From contig NZ_LMLZ01000001.1 of the NCBI RefSeq assembly GCF_001422735.1, positions 369,233 to 433,232 of the forward strand: a DNA stretch of 64,000 nucleotides, given 5' to 3'. Both the position numbers and the translations under genes were made by a program. The notes under the pieces were generated by a model that worked only from the letters and a program-made list of their open reading frames with translations, was not told the DNA's origin and ran no database searches. Positions 55,001 to 59,883 of the stretch are shown in pieces. This DNA comes from Acidovorax sp. Leaf78. Lineage in GTDB: Bacteria; Pseudomonadota; Gammaproteobacteria; Burkholderiales; Burkholderiaceae_C. Within the stretch, counting starts at the first letter, position 1, and each line of letters begins with the position of its first letter.

Positions 55001-56854
55001 GTGGATCAGGCAGATTTTGTGCACCTGGTGCGCATGAGCGAGCATGCCAGTGCCGACAACAGCCGCGCCTACCGACGCAGCGTGGCCGCTTTTGCGGCGC
55101 TGGGCTATGCGTGGGTGCTGGGCTGCCTGGCGCTGGCCGTCGGCATCGTGCTGTGGGTGGTGCCCCAGGTCCTGCACGGGCGCTTTCGGCTGGCCATGGT
55201 GTGGCTGCTGCTGGGAGCGGTGGGCCTGCTGTGGGTGAGCCTGCGGGCGCTGTGGGTGCGGCTCGAGCCCCCGGGCGGTGTGGAGATCACGGCACTGGAG
55301 GCGCCGGAATTGTTCGAGGCACTCGAGCGCATCCGCCGCAAGATCAAGGGGCCGCCCATCCACACGGTGCGGCTCGACAGCGAGTTCAACGCCAGCATCC
55401 AGCAGGTGCCCCGCTTTGGACTGCTGGGCGGCGCCGTCAACCACCTGACCATTGGCTTGCCGCTCTTGATGGCGCTGGACCGCCCGCGTTTCCTGGCGGT
55501 GCTGGCCCACGAATATGGGCACCTGCGCGGCGACCACGGCCGGTTTGCCGCCTGGATCTACCGCACCCGCCTGTCGTGGATGCGCCTGAACTACAGCCTG
55601 TCCGATGACGAGGGCCCGGCCGCAGCGGCCACGCAGGCCTTCATGCGCTGGTACTTTCCGCGGTTTTCGGCCAAGACCTTTGCGCTGGCACGGCAGGACG
55701 AGTACGAGGCCGACCGCATCGCCGGCCGCTTGCTGGGCCGCGAGGTGACGGCGGCGGCCTTGGCCGAGATCGAGATCCGCGGCGCCTGGCTGCACGAAGA
55801 GTTCTGGGGCCAACACTGGTGCGGCGCCGCAGGCAACCCGCTGCCCGTGGGGCCCTACCGCGGCATGCGACGCCGCCTGGCCGAGCCGCCGGACGCTGCC
55901 TTTGCCAACGATGCGATGCGCCAGGCGCTCAAGCGCATCAGCAGCGTGGACGACACCCACCCGGGCCTGCGCGACCGCATCGAGGCACTGGACGCCGCAC
56001 CCACCGTGCCCGACTGGTCGCGCGGCAACGCGCTGGGCCTGCTGGGCCCCGAGGCCAAGCGCTGGGTGGCGCATTTCGACAAAGAGTGGTGCCGTGACAA
56101 CGCCACCGAATGGAAGCAGCACCACGCCTGGCTGGAGCGGGTGCGCGCCCGCGCCGAGGCGCTGGGCGCATCCACCGCCCAGAGCAGCGCGGTCGAGCTG
56201 GTGGAGCTGGCACGCCTCAAGCGCCACCTGGACCCGCGTGCCAATGTGCGCCCGCTGTACGAGACCGCGCTGGCACGCAGCCCCGAACACCCGGCCGCCT
56301 TGCGCGGGCTGGTCACCTGCCTGGCCGACGACGACCGCGACGGCAAGCTGGCGCTGCTGCACCGGCTGTGGGACACCGCCAGCGGCGACCGCTTCTGGGC
56401 CGCGCGCACGGCGCTGGCCGAGCTCGAAACCCCCCGCCTGGGCAAGGAGCACGACGCCGCCGCCTTCAAGCAGTGGCGCAAGCGCCTGGAGCGCGCGCAG
56501 GAGTCCGAGGACCGGGCGTGGGAGGAGCTGTCGGGCACCTCGTTCTTCAGCCAGATCTCGCGCCACGACCTGAGCGAGTTCGAGCTGGCCGAGCTCAAGG
56601 CAGAGCTCGCGCGCTGCGTGCCGCTGGCCCGCTGCTGGCTGGTGCGCAAGAACCTGCGCGAGTACGCACAGCGCCGGGCCTACCTGCTGTTCGTGGAGTT
56701 GCCGGGCCTGGACGACGACAGCCGCTACCACCTGTGCCGCGCGCTGGAGCGCAACCTGAGCATCCCCGGGCCCACCCTGGCGCTGTGGGCGGGCGAGTCG
56801 CCCACGCTCAAGGAGATTCAGCGCTACGCTTTCGATCCGATCTTCACCAGGTAG
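55001..56854 (+). CDS. Large membrane M48 family metalloprotease
   Basis: The 617-residue protein has two transmembrane helices (about 35-58 and 64-84), a zinc-protease domain with HEYGH at 170-174 (VLAHEYGHLRGDHGRF) and the third ligand in DEYEAD (233-238). A long C-terminal region (about 300-617) looks helical and charged, with repeats that resemble TPR-like pairs. The family degrades membrane or misfolded proteins. The C-terminal half is unusual and has no motif I recognise. It starts at a GTG at 55001 with a GGGAGAGGG site. A later ATG at 55034 is an alternative. A family-2 repeat follows directly after the stop. Confidence 0.87.
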   Translation: MDQADFVHLVRMSEHASADNSRAYRRSVAAFAALGYAWVLGCLALAVGIVLWVVPQVLHGRFRLAMVWLLLGAVGLLWVSLRALWVRLEPPGGVEITALEAPELFEALERIRRKIKGPPIHTVRLDSEFNASIQQVPRFGLLGGAVNHLTIGLPLLMALDRPRFLAVLAHEYGHLRGDHGRFAAWIYRTRLSWMRLNYSLSDDEGPAAAATQAFMRWYFPRFSAKTFALARQDEYEADRIAGRLLGREVTAAALAEIEIRGAWLHEEFWGQHWCGAAGNPLPVGPYRGMRRRLAEPPDAAFANDAMRQALKRISSVDDTHPGLRDRIEALDAAPTVPDWSRGNALGLLGPEAKRWVAHFDKEWCRDNATEWKQHHAWLERVRARAEALGASTAQSSAVELVELARLKRHLDPRANVRPLYETALARSPEHPAALRGLVTCLADDDRDGKLALLHRLWDTASGDRFWAARTALAELETPRLGKEHDAAAFKQWRKRLERAQESEDRAWEELSGTSFFSQISRHDLSEFELAELKAELARCVPLARCWLVRKNLREYAQRRAYLLFVELPGLDDDSRYHLCRALERNLSIPGPTLALWAGESPTLKEIQRYAFDPIFTR

Positions 56855-56860
56855 ATGCAT

Positions 56861-57056
56861 AAGCCCCCCTGAGACGCTTCGCGTCTTCCCCCCAGGGGGA
56901 CGCCACCGGTGGCCTGGCAAAGCCAGTTCCACGGTGGCACTGGCCTGGCGCGTGCCTGTTTCAGCCTCTGCGCACCGTCTTTGCGCTTGAACCCGGCGCT
57001 GCCAAATGCCAGCGGACCCCGCGCAAGGGCCGCCCCGCCGCGATACAGGGGGGCTT
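56861..57056 (+). repeat. Family-2 repeat with inverted ends
   Basis: An 11-bp perfect inverted repeat bounds it: AAGCCCCCCTG (56861-56871) and CAGGGGGGCTT (57046-57056). It contains the GCCACCGGTGGC palindrome and the CTGGC-AAA-GCCAG hairpin (56914-56926). It lies between the M48 gene and the RsmB-like gene and looks MITE-like, with a truncated inverted half at the right end. Confidence 0.7.
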
Positions 57057-57077
57057 CCAGGGTGGGACAATAGAGGG

Positions 57078-58349
57078 ATGCATCCCAAAGTTCTTCTCGA
57101 CGCCTGCGCCGAACTCGTCCGACTCACCCTCACCTTCGAACACCCCGCCGACGCGGTGGTGTCGCGCTTTTTCCGTGACAACCGGGGCCTGGGGCCCCGC
57201 GAGCGGGCCACGCTGGCCGAAACGGTCTACACCGTGCTGCGCAAGAAGCTGCTGTTTGACCACATGGCCCCCTCGGGCTCCGGCCCCAAGGAGCGGCGCC
57301 TGGCCATCCTGGGCTTTCACGGCCCGCGCGACTTTCTGAACGGCGCCCTGACCGACCAGGAAAAGAACTGGCTCGACCAATGCGACGCCGTGACGGTGGA
57401 CGACCTGATGGAGCGCCACCGCCACAACCTGCCCGAATGGCTGGTGCAGCCCCTGAAGGACCAGCTGGGCACGGGCTTCTGGCCGCTGGTGGAGAGTTTG
57501 TCGAACGCCGCGCCGCTGGACCTGCGCGTCAACGCCCTGCAGGACAAGCGCGCCGATGTGCAAAAGGAACTCGCCAAGGCCGGCATCAAGGCCGTGCCCA
57601 CGCCGTACTCGCCCTGGGGCCTGCGCATCGACGGCAAGCCGGCGCTGACCAAGCTCGATGTCTTTACCCGTGGCGCCGTGGAGGTGCAGGACGAGGGCTC
57701 CCAACTGCTGGCCCTGCTGCTCGACGCCAAGCGCGGCGAGATGGTGGTGGACTTTTGCGCCGGTGCCGGCGGCAAGACGCTGGCCATCGGTGCCAGCATG
57801 CGCAGCACGGGCCGCCTGTATGCGTTCGACGTGTCGGGCCACCGGCTCGATGCCTTGAAGCCCCGCCTGGCCCGCAGCGGGCTGTCCAACGTTCACCCCG
57901 CAGCCATCGCCCACGAACGCGATGACCGCGTCAAGCGCCTGGCGGGCAAGATCGACCGCGTGCTGGTCGACGCACCGTGCTCGGGCCTGGGCACGCTGCG
58001 CCGCAACCCCGACCTCAAGTGGCGCCAGACGCCCAAGGCGGTGGAAGAACTGGTGGCCAAGCAGACGGCCATCCTGGCCAGCGCCGCGCGCCTGCTCAAG
58101 TCCGGCGGCCGGCTGGTGTATGCCACCTGCAGCATCCTGCCGCAGGAGAACGAGGCCATCGCCGAGGCTTTCAGCGCCGCGCACCCCGACTTCGTGCTGG
58201 TGGATGCCGGCGAGCTGCTGGCCCAGCTCAAGGTCGAGGGCGCCCCGCAGCTGTGCAGCGGCGGCGAGTCCGGCACTGGATATCTGCGCCTGTGGCCCCA
58301 TGTGCACCACACCGACGGGTTCTTTGCGGCGGTCTGGACGAGGAAGTAA
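57078..58349 (+). CDS. RsmB/NOP family RNA (cytosine-5) methyltransferase
   Basis: This 423-residue protein has a C-terminal methyltransferase core with motif I VVDFCAGAGGKTLA near residue 222, the acidic YAFDVSGHRLDALK, and VDAPCSGLGTLRRNPDLKW and YATCSILPQENEAI, whose two Cys are the catalytic pair for C5 methylation of cytosine in RNA. The N-terminal helical part is RsmB/RsmF-like, but the NusB-type domain is shorter than in RsmB, so I give no symbol. It starts at an ATG at 57078 after a GAGGG site. A family-2 repeat starts right after its TAA stop. Confidence 0.9.
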   Translation: MHPKVLLDACAELVRLTLTFEHPADAVVSRFFRDNRGLGPRERATLAETVYTVLRKKLLFDHMAPSGSGPKERRLAILGFHGPRDFLNGALTDQEKNWLDQCDAVTVDDLMERHRHNLPEWLVQPLKDQLGTGFWPLVESLSNAAPLDLRVNALQDKRADVQKELAKAGIKAVPTPYSPWGLRIDGKPALTKLDVFTRGAVEVQDEGSQLLALLLDAKRGEMVVDFCAGAGGKTLAIGASMRSTGRLYAFDVSGHRLDALKPRLARSGLSNVHPAAIAHERDDRVKRLAGKIDRVLVDAPCSGLGTLRRNPDLKWRQTPKAVEELVAKQTAILASAARLLKSGGRLVYATCSILPQENEAIAEAFSAAHPDFVLVDAGELLAQLKVEGAPQLCSGGESGTGYLRLWPHVHHTDGFFAAVWTRK

Positions 58350-58557
58350 GCCCCCCCCTGAGCCGCTGCGCGTCTTCCCCCAAGGGGGACGCCACCGGTG
58401 GCCCGGCGGAGCCGGTTCCACGGTGGCACTGGCATGGGCCGCGCCGGTTGCGCCGCAAGTGACGAAACGGGCGTGGGAGTTGCGGTTCCGCTCGTTGCGC
58501 AGTCCGTTCTGGCGCCCAGTCTGCACGGCCTTGTCGTGAAGGCGACTCAGGGGCCAA
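58350..58557 (+). repeat. Family-2 repeat downstream of the RsmB-like gene
   Basis: The core (58350-58440) is close to the copy at 56861, with a compensatory change in the hairpin: CCGGC-GGA-GCCGG (58403-58415) against CTGGC-AAA-GCCAG. CCCCTGAGCCGC at the left and GCGACTCAGGGG near 58548 are inverted (11 of 12 bases). The rest of 58350-58662 holds no other recognisable gene. Confidence 0.65.
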
Positions 58558-58662
58558 GTCACTCTGGGTACTGTGGATAACCTCCAGTCTGAAATGGGGG
58601 GCGCGCTTTAAAATTGACAGTCCCGCCACCGCTGGTGCCCGGGTGTTTTGTACGAGGTATTT

Positions 58663-59883
58663 TTGAATATGCTGTTACCCGACTGGACTGTGCTGAACGC
58701 CGCCATCGACTGGCTGGGCCACGGGCTGTGGGACTTGGCCTGGTGGGAGATCGTGCTCTACACGCTGGCGACGACGCACATCACCATTGCGGCCGTCACG
58801 ATCTTCCTGCACCGCTCGCAGGCGCACCGGTCGGTCGACCTGCATGCGATCCCTTCGCATTTCTTCCGCTTCTGGCTGTGGCTCGGCACCGGCATGGTGA
58901 CCAAGGAGTGGGTGGCCATCCACCGCAAGCACCACGCCAAGTGCGAAACCGTGGACGACCCGCACAGCCCGCAGACCCGGGGCCTCGATACCGTGATGTG
59001 GCGCGGCGCCGAGCTGTACCGCGCCGAGTCGAAGAACCCCGAGACCATGAAGAAGTTCGGCCACGGCACGCCCGATGACTGGATGGAACGCAATGTCTAC
59101 ACCCGCTTTGGCTGGCAGGGCGTGGGCGTGATGCTGGTGCTCAACCTCGCGCTGTTCGGCGCAGCGGGCGCCGCGGTCTGGGCCGTGCAGATGCTGTGGA
59201 TCCCGTTCTGGGCGGCCGGTGTGGTCAACGGCGTGGGTCACTACTGGGGCTACCGCAACTTCGAGGCGCAGGACGCCAGCACCAACCTCTCGCCCTGGGG
59301 CGTGATCATTGGCGGCGAAGAGCTGCACAACAACCACCATACCTATCCCACGTCGGCCAAGTTCTCGGTCAAGCCGTACGAGTTCGACATCGGCTGGGCC
59401 TACATCAGCCTGATGAAGAAAGTGGGCTGGGCCACTGTCAAGAAGGTGCCGCCCAAGCTGCAGCTGGGCGACGTGAAGCCCGTGGCCGATGAAAAGACGC
59501 TGGAGGCGCTGATCGCCAACCGCTACGAGGTGATGGCCGGCTACGCTCGCGGCGTGCGTCAGGCCTGCAAGGAAGAGATTGCCGCGCTCAAGGCCCGCCA
59601 GGCGGACGTCTCGGTACTGACCGCCGCCAAGCGCTGGCTGCACCGCGATGCCGAGAAGGTGCCCGCGGGCGCTCTGCCGCAACTGGCCCAGGCGCGCGCC
59701 GCCCACCCGGCGCTCGACAAGATGGTCACCATGCGCGAAGAGCTGCGTCAGCTGTGGCTCAACACGTCCCAGTCGCGCGAGCAACTGACGGCCGACCTGC
59801 AAGCCTGGTGCCGCCGCGCGGAAGAAAGCGGCATTGCCGCGCTGCGCGAGTTCTCGCTGCGGCTGCGCGCGGCGCAGGCCTGA
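58663..59883 (+). CDS. Fatty acid desaturase (acyl-CoA / DesA-like)
   Basis: The 406-residue enzyme has the three His boxes of membrane desaturases: HRSQAH at 50-55, HRKHH near 87 and HNNHH near 217. Transmembrane segments lie at about 25-48, 63-85, 155-175 and 180-200. It should introduce a double bond into acyl chains and affect membrane fluidity. A TTG at 58663 five bases after GAGGT is chosen; an ATG at 58669 is equally good. The 100-residue C-terminal tail after the last box is charged and helical. A strong terminator follows. Confidence 0.9.
   Translation: MNMLLPDWTVLNAAIDWLGHGLWDLAWWEIVLYTLATTHITIAAVTIFLHRSQAHRSVDLHAIPSHFFRFWLWLGTGMVTKEWVAIHRKHHAKCETVDDPHSPQTRGLDTVMWRGAELYRAESKNPETMKKFGHGTPDDWMERNVYTRFGWQGVGVMLVLNLALFGAAGAAVWAVQMLWIPFWAAGVVNGVGHYWGYRNFEAQDASTNLSPWGVIIGGEELHNNHHTYPTSAKFSVKPYEFDIGWAYISLMKKVGWATVKKVPPKLQLGDVKPVADEKTLEALIANRYEVMAGYARGVRQACKEEIAALKARQADVSVLTAAKRWLHRDAEKVPAGALPQLAQARAAHPALDKMVTMREELRQLWLNTSQSREQLTADLQAWCRRAEESGIAALREFSLRLRAAQA

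Follow-up and report, generated by a model that had tools for sequence, protein, structure and literature searches.

The RsmB-like gene of Acidovorax sp. Leaf78 is flanked by two copies of a repeat that is apparently undescribed, spread through the bacterial family, modular, built of hairpins and strongly inclined to lie next to stop codons. Its structure and position are shown for the genome, referred to as G000, that holds the window (the whole stretch of 64,000 nucleotides that was analysed). Among open-access PMC articles, judged by their titles and the openings of their abstracts, no description of this repeat was recognised. A sequence-only reading had already taken the two copies on either side of the gene to be related, and they are 88% identical over 97 nt; it had also placed each within seven bases of a stop codon, and copy 1 does start 7 nt after a TAG and copy 2 directly after a TAA. 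The anchor GGGGGACGCCACC has exact matches in the 64-kb window at these two copies only. The protein encoded between them scores below the NCBIfam RsmB cut-offs; its six closest relatives among the named genomes, at 92-93% protein identity, are all from Acidovorax. The features of the two copies and their surroundings, in window coordinates, are as follows.

56852 to 56854, plus strand: TAG stop codon of the upstream M48-peptidase gene (Pfam PF01435)
56861 to 56959, plus strand: copy 1 of the repeat, 3' of the stop codon of the M48-peptidase gene
56873 to 56885, plus strand: hairpin H1 of copy 1 (GACGC-TTC-GCGTC)
56888 to 56899, plus strand: hairpin H2 of copy 1 (C-run/G-run)
56902 to 56938, plus strand: compound hairpin H3 of copy 1, with 14 pairs, the strongest covariation and the inner stem CTGGC/GCCAG
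56939 to 56959, plus strand: weaker hairpin H4 of copy 1 (CTGGC ... GCCTG), its pairing poorly supported
57017 to 57056, minus strand: what remains of an older copy in antisense, with a type-B H3 and the 5' end AAGCCCCCCTG, 26/26 nt identical to the antisense copy of L031/L036
58347 to 58349, plus strand: TAA stop codon of the RsmB-like gene (gene 57078-58349)
58350 to 58448, plus strand: copy 2 of the repeat, 3' of the stop codon of the RsmB-like gene
58362 to 58374, plus strand: hairpin H1 of copy 2, with one C-T mismatch
58377 to 58388, plus strand: hairpin H2 of copy 2
58391 to 58427, plus strand: hairpin H3 of copy 2, inner stem CCGGC/GCCGG
58428 to 58448, plus strand: hairpin H4 of copy 2
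58537 to 58553, minus strand: what is probably left of the 5' end of an antisense copy (CCCCTGAGTCGCCTTCA)

Searched with blastn, the genome yields 44 matches, and for 40 of these E is no higher than 6.4e-21. A covariance model made from 30 copies (R1) finds at least 150 at E <= 0.01, a number that is a lower bound since these were all the candidates scored, and that includes a few partial matches and some that overlap in doublets; copy 1 is the top-scoring match of the genome search (115.6 bits). R1 matches are present in all 23 of the 23 same-genus relatives searched, from 5 to at least 99 in each, and in none of the 16 genomes searched from other families of the order. In the family to which Acidovorax belongs, which we take to be the Comamonadaceae, matches at E <= 1e-4 and under stricter filters occur in 105 of 150 genomes and 97 of 141 genera, the own genome included. 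One same-genus genome, G002, holds 5 matches only (best E 2.1e-5), as against 22 to at least 99 in the others, and offers a natural, nearly empty background.

The element is about 105 nt long and reads, 5' to 3', as a first C-run with its flank (CCCCC-TGAG) followed by H1, H2, H3 and H4. H1 has five possible pairs, one of which (columns 13/32) fails to form in 62 of 120 copies; H2 joins a C-run to a G-run and can form an extra stem in its loop; H3 is the compound hairpin of 14 pairs; and H4 (CTGGC/GCCAG) is weaker. Throughout the repeat family the first C-run is able to replace the second as partner of the single G-run, the run in question being 56864-56869 in copy 1. At one and the same site, relatives can have a type B of H3 (GCGGCGGGGCGGCCCTTGCGCGG) instead of type A, hairpin modules being swapped between copies. 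A further subtype, in which an additional 5' module (...GTCCAAGCCTGCGCAGGCAGGCTTGGAGCCGCGGCCTCAGCCCC...) separates H2 from the stop codon, is seen at C24:123922, C24:186369 and C12:181388 of G000, among other places, and at L244 in G023; in it H2 lies further from the stop, and 15 copies are found at 80-120 nt, some of them as second members of doublets. Antisense copies exist, and a decayed inverted remnant lies near both window copies, which are the copies at which remnants were counted. A second dispersed repeat, resembling ATAGCTGCTTGCGCTTGATGGACAAGCGCTAGAGGCC, is found 3' of several elements, for example at L122 (C22:136988) and L154.

The two window copies differ in the inner stem of H3, which is CTGGC/GCCAG in copy 1 (56914-56918/56922-56926) and CCGGC/GCCGG in copy 2 (58403-58407/58411-58415), a change on both arms that the sequence-only reading took as a sign of selection for base pairing. 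Across 123 distinct copies in the own genome the pair concerned (columns 93/103) is U-A in 73, C-G in 41, G-C in 2 and U-G in 1, with 2 unpaired and 4 gapped, and covariation in the own genome, in other genera and at a single site followed through the genus (site 107) bears that interpretation out. In the own genome 97.6% of 3163 stem cells pair and 17 of the 26 pairs have changed on both sides; none of 500 shuffles reaches any of five measures, and slid structures pair to 38-56%. Among 63 matches from other genera, 96.2% of cells are paired and 14 of the 26 pairs have changed on both sides, with no shuffle in 500 reaching four of the measures and 5 in 500 reaching the fifth. Both alignments were made by fitting to the model, and the copying of subfamilies inflates their cell counts; a single orthologous site is the cleaner test of covariation. 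Site 107 (3' of the gene at C6:15713) was compared in 14 of 17 genomes, leaving out G015, which has a longer form, and two without the element. There, H1 keeps 4/4 pairs in 14/14 genomes, with two adjacent pairs flipped between G-C and C-G (6 versus 8 genomes); the outer stem of H3 keeps 6/6 pairs in 13 genomes and 5/6 in one, through changes of G-C/A-T, A-T/C-G and A-T/G-C; and the stem in the H2 loop keeps 7/7 pairs in 8 genomes and 5-6/7 in six. These changes come as whole hairpins in differing combinations, so that many are probably due to recombination between copies. In the comparison of G000 with G023, its closest relative among those searched, the stems are not perfect: when sites with element identity below 75% or without an A2 row are left out, the H3 stem pairs number 340 the same, 8 with one-sided changes that keep pairing, 8 with one-sided changes that break or restore it and 7 with two-sided changes that keep it, these last belonging to sites at which the whole element seems to have been exchanged as a block; 127 of 1231 unpaired positions differ. 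The hairpins are preserved by paired mutations, and the pairing is real.

In what kind of molecule that pairing matters is a separate question. Near-pairs of the G-U and A-C kinds stand at 9:9 among 1717 H3 cells in the own genome and at 5:5 among 882 in other genera. An RNA copied from the sense strand should tolerate G-U more readily; with the two kinds equal, the H3 counts suit a DNA hairpin no less well than an RNA. For H1 and H2 the own genome has a ratio of 33:10, and other genera have one of 13:31; H4 of the own genome stands at 59:10, with 28 of those 59 owed to one weak pair. Thus, wobble counts do not single out sense RNA, and a DNA hairpin or a symmetric palindrome fits H3 equally. 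Single-sequence folding has been set aside as evidence because the minimum free energy z-scores of the two window copies with their flanks disagree (-3.25 and -0.62).

The position of the repeat has been analysed against genes called by codon usage, with a caller that was seeded on three window genes and iterated, so that start codons are approximate. The upstream gene is on the same strand for 141 of the 150 listed copies and on the opposite strand for 9; one copy lies inside a called gene. For 117 of the 150, the element starts between -10 and +14 nt from the end of the stop codon of a same-strand gene. Of those listed, 132 have both a same-strand upstream gene and a called downstream gene, and in this sample 100 start at -2 to +10, where uniform placement in the spacer would put 22.1 (sd 3.8); the preference for positions after stop codons that the sequence-only reading envisaged is supported. 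That reading had named two outcomes that would refute it, a lack of covariation over more copies and a lack of this preference, and neither came about. The listed genome copies have no comparable peak of placement at the next start codon or at the stop of an opposite gene. The gap between stop codon and C-run varies from 0 to 17 nt with no single fixed distance, and 8 of 116 copies supply the stop codon themselves, as the TGA of CCCCCTGAG. Genes with each of the three stop codons bear the element, TAG (30/116) and TAA (27/116) being enriched relative to the 109 and 87 among 657 called genes (P 3e-6); some of the TAG stops are formed in part by the element's own first G. A second repeat family, considered as a control for placement, provided 2 copies matching the pattern, too few to use. 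Genes that bear an element have a mean codon bias per codon of 0.383 (n=115) versus 0.342 (n=499; P 6e-5), a difference that is confounded by the gene caller.

Stop adjacency extends to other genera, where a frame of at least 100 codons ends at the element in 52 of 60 hits, compared with 393 of 9069 control positions (4.3%). The 60 were taken from 17 genomes as the top scorers among the hits listed, a non-random sample in which the 8 that fail the stop test are counted as misses; the test accepts any open frame of 100 codons, antisense frames included (at L031, for example, a 455-codon antisense frame over rsmB). The one sample not picked by score is small, and stop adjacency is weaker in it. 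It comes from RsmB loci, of which 7 in 80 contain 9 matches: three precede rsmB in antisense orientation, another three (L040:6658, L079 and L084) start 2-7 nt behind a stop codon and the remaining three do not.

Presence and absence of the element at orthologous sites suggest that the repeat is, or once was, mobile. At 34 sites compared between G000 and G023, the element is absent from G023 at 3, window copy 1 among them; at the others it is identical, decayed (as window copy 2 is in G023) or replaced as a block. Across 17 genomes of the genus, occupancy is 14/17 at site 76, 15/17 at site 107 and 4/17 at site 27. At site 76 (L231, L232; G203 and G195, without the element) another hairpin-rich sequence (CCCCCACGCTCCCTCACT.CGTGTGG...) is seen by eye 3' of the same stop codon. 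Of the element-bearing genes of other genera, 9 in 52 have a G000 orthologue that bears an element too, at an identity of at least 69%, a limit that was chosen after the list had been inspected. The excess over chance corresponds to P 1.4e-5 to 2.7e-4 if the genome is given 150-220 copies and taken to have 5300 genes. Retention of copies and their repeated insertion behind certain genes would account for it equally well. The genes pyrB, pyrC, smpB, purB and mreD have an element 3' in G000 and 3' of their orthologues in other genera (L154, L201, L123, L182).

The window copies had also suggested a boundary to the element, in the form of a perfect 11-bp inverted repeat at copy 1. That repeat exists (56861-56871/57046-57056), and it is not a boundary. 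In L031, L034 and L036 a copy of the element stands antisense before rsmB, and 57017-57056 retains 26 nt identical to the type-B antisense copy of L031/L036 as well as its 5' end. With plus-strand copy 1 adjoining an antisense remnant, each of the two "inverted ends" is the 5' end of a separate copy. CAGGGGGG occurs within 400 nt 3' of 1 of the 150 copies, copy 1 itself, and in 0 of 282 control windows; CAGGGGGGCTT, with up to 2 mismatches, follows 16 of 150 copies as against 23 of 282 controls, which is no enrichment; and CTCAGGGGG, with up to 1 mismatch, follows 2 of 150, including window copy 2, the arm of copy 1 falling below the threshold. Empty-site comparisons by eye showed no target-site duplication, and empty and filled sites differ by more than a clean insertion. 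Terminal inverted repeats are not a feature of the family.

The repeat is itself a target. An element of the IS110 family (PF02371 transposase) interrupts H3 at one and the same point of its inner loop, GGCNNAG, in 9 of 9 element junctions, eight of them located by script and one, L273, by eye; the search covered the stretches around elements, and insertions elsewhere are possible. All of these junctions are at or near contig ends (L273, at the start of G000:C1, and L128, L169, L170, L186, L194, L195, L202 and L207), and at least 8 contig ends of the assembly coincide with the insertion point of IS110 in H3. A RAYT as driver of the repeat's spread was considered and rejected. G000 has a single Y1_Tnp (RAYT-like) gene (L208, C25:175415-175693), without listed copies as its neighbours, the nearest being at C25:151396 and 186754; over 150 genomes, 80 have both Y1_Tnp and element, 25 the element only, 32 Y1_Tnp only and 13 neither, so that the two are unassociated (Fisher P 0.54).

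The closest parallel is with the REP and BIME sequences of E. coli, Pseudomonas and Stenotrophomonas, which likewise combine high copy number, intergenic location, hairpins with complementary mutations, a position that is in part close behind stop codons and use as a target by the IS110 family. REPs are described as palindromes of 20-50 nt with a tetranucleotide head that is mostly GTAG (PMC8266576), the cognate RAYT gene as flanked by two inverted REP copies (PMC2817692), and REPs as an IS110-family target (PMC1525189). For E. coli, REPs closer than 16 nt to a stop codon are reported to lower translation, with 260 of 496 proposed to do so; a later count gives 446 of 4072 REPs within 15 nt of a stop codon (PMC12306157, citing Liang et al. 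2015). The repeat shares the high intergenic copy number (at least 150 matches, one in a called gene) and the specific insertion sequence. It differs in being about 105 nt long with several hairpins, in having GTAG near the start of the C-run (within 8 nt) in only 12 of 150 copies, some of these made by a TAG stop, in the larger share of its copies that are adjacent to stops (117/150), and in that no RAYT gene flanked by its copies was found. BIMEs are alternating inverted arrays; the listed copies of the repeat form six close pairs, all of them doublets in the same orientation, and there are besides the antisense copies and the decayed inverted remnants near both window copies. The repeat is accordingly REP-like in copy number, hairpins, stop proximity and IS110 targeting, and is not classed as a REP on account of its size, head and lack of a flanked RAYT gene. 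MIRUs also appear mobile and insert at gene boundaries in a way linked to translation (PMC12548453). In contrast to the repeat, which sits behind stop codons, their insertion sites are at start codons, and they contain an ORF that is coupled to the gene that follows. MITEs such as Correia and RUP are similarly short and dispersed and have stem-loops, but the repeat is without terminal inverted repeats as a family feature and without a visible target duplication. Covarying multi-hairpin structure is shared with the RNA families of Rfam, but a search of Rfam 15 with window positions 56000-59100, both strands, gave no match at E up to 1.

How, then, might the repeat have come to lie where it does? 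The best explanation, which we consider about as likely to be right as wrong, is that of a dispersed, mobile or once-mobile REP-like hairpin repeat that is retained behind stop codons and acts at the 3' end of mRNA. The repeat would spread as DNA, and copies would be kept mainly 3' of a stop codon, because the 3' region of the mRNA would then have their hairpins as its first structure. A hairpin stack in that place might abut the terminating ribosome and the 3' part of the mRNA; it might damp or insulate translation and slow decay from the 3' end, in the manner of the E. coli REPs less than 16 nt from a stop. We infer such a function from position and from the REP parallel. Several observations pull the other way: the equality of G-U and A-C in H3, the H1 pair that is so often unpaired, the decay of several shared copies, the 9 of 150 copies with an upstream gene on the opposite strand, the weak stop adjacency of the RsmB sample that was not selected by score and the variable gap. 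A more demanding proposition, that insertion or retention depends on translation stops as such, is doubtful; it would mean either insertion guided by the ends of reading frames or a single modular element, its hairpins interchangeable, that provides well over 100 genes per genome with useful hairpins and is renewed when lost.

The repeat may instead be purely selfish DNA, its hairpins recognised as single-stranded DNA by a putative REP/IS200-like enzyme, the position behind stops being merely a harmless place to insert, with no function in RNA. We regard this as unlikely. Pairing is strictly Watson-Crick in H3, copies decay or go missing between close relatives, modules are swapped between copies at one site, and IS110-family elements insert at a fixed position in H3, much as insertion sequences are described to do in REPs (PMC1525189). 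Harmlessness, however, predicts uniform placement in the spacer and not the peak at -2 to +10, and some sites stay occupied throughout the genus and, beyond chance, across genera; the Y1_Tnp gene, moreover, is unassociated with the element. A selected role at the 3' end and a selfish repeat at the level of DNA may both be compatible with the evidence.

Less probable again, and in our judgement improbable, is an insertion process that itself reads the ends of ORFs, for instance by joining to mRNA 3' ends that have been trimmed back to the terminating ribosome, with copying into DNA to follow. It would account for stop adjacency in the own genome and in the top hits of other genera, for the use of all three stop codons and for the sense orientation of 141 of 150 copies, but its machinery is putative; the first nucleotides of the gap mismatch the spacer of relatives at sites 0 and 27, as judged by eye; and antisense copies exist. 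That the repeat is a Rho-independent terminator or a transcription attenuator spread as a cassette is very improbable, its 3' location and GC-rich hairpins notwithstanding. Scanning the two window copies turned up nothing that resembles a terminator; convergent next genes follow 25 of 132 copies (19%), as against 24% of gene pairs in the same stretches; and a same-strand next gene starts no more than 60 nt from the end of the element at 34 of 111 copies. The intrinsic terminator (GC hairpin and T run) is rejected on the first two of these grounds, and the attenuator proposed by the sequence-only reading finds no support. The miniature transposon with inverted ends, another suggestion of that reading, is the least probable of all and, as a general feature, refuted: the perfect 11-bp repeat of copy 1 and the CTCAGGGG found 3' of copy 2 speak for it, but right-end motifs are otherwise rare or no commoner 3' of copies than in controls, and the right arm at copy 1 belongs to the older antisense copy.

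If the position is targeted, there would be an as yet unknown insertion process that recognises the ends of reading frames. If, as retention behind stop codons would have it, the position is selected, then the genome contains more than 100 natural copies of one hairpin stack placed behind stops, together with variants, partial swaps and empty orthologous sites, and what REP-like hairpins do at stop codons, whether they affect translation, affect decay or are merely tolerated, would become directly testable.
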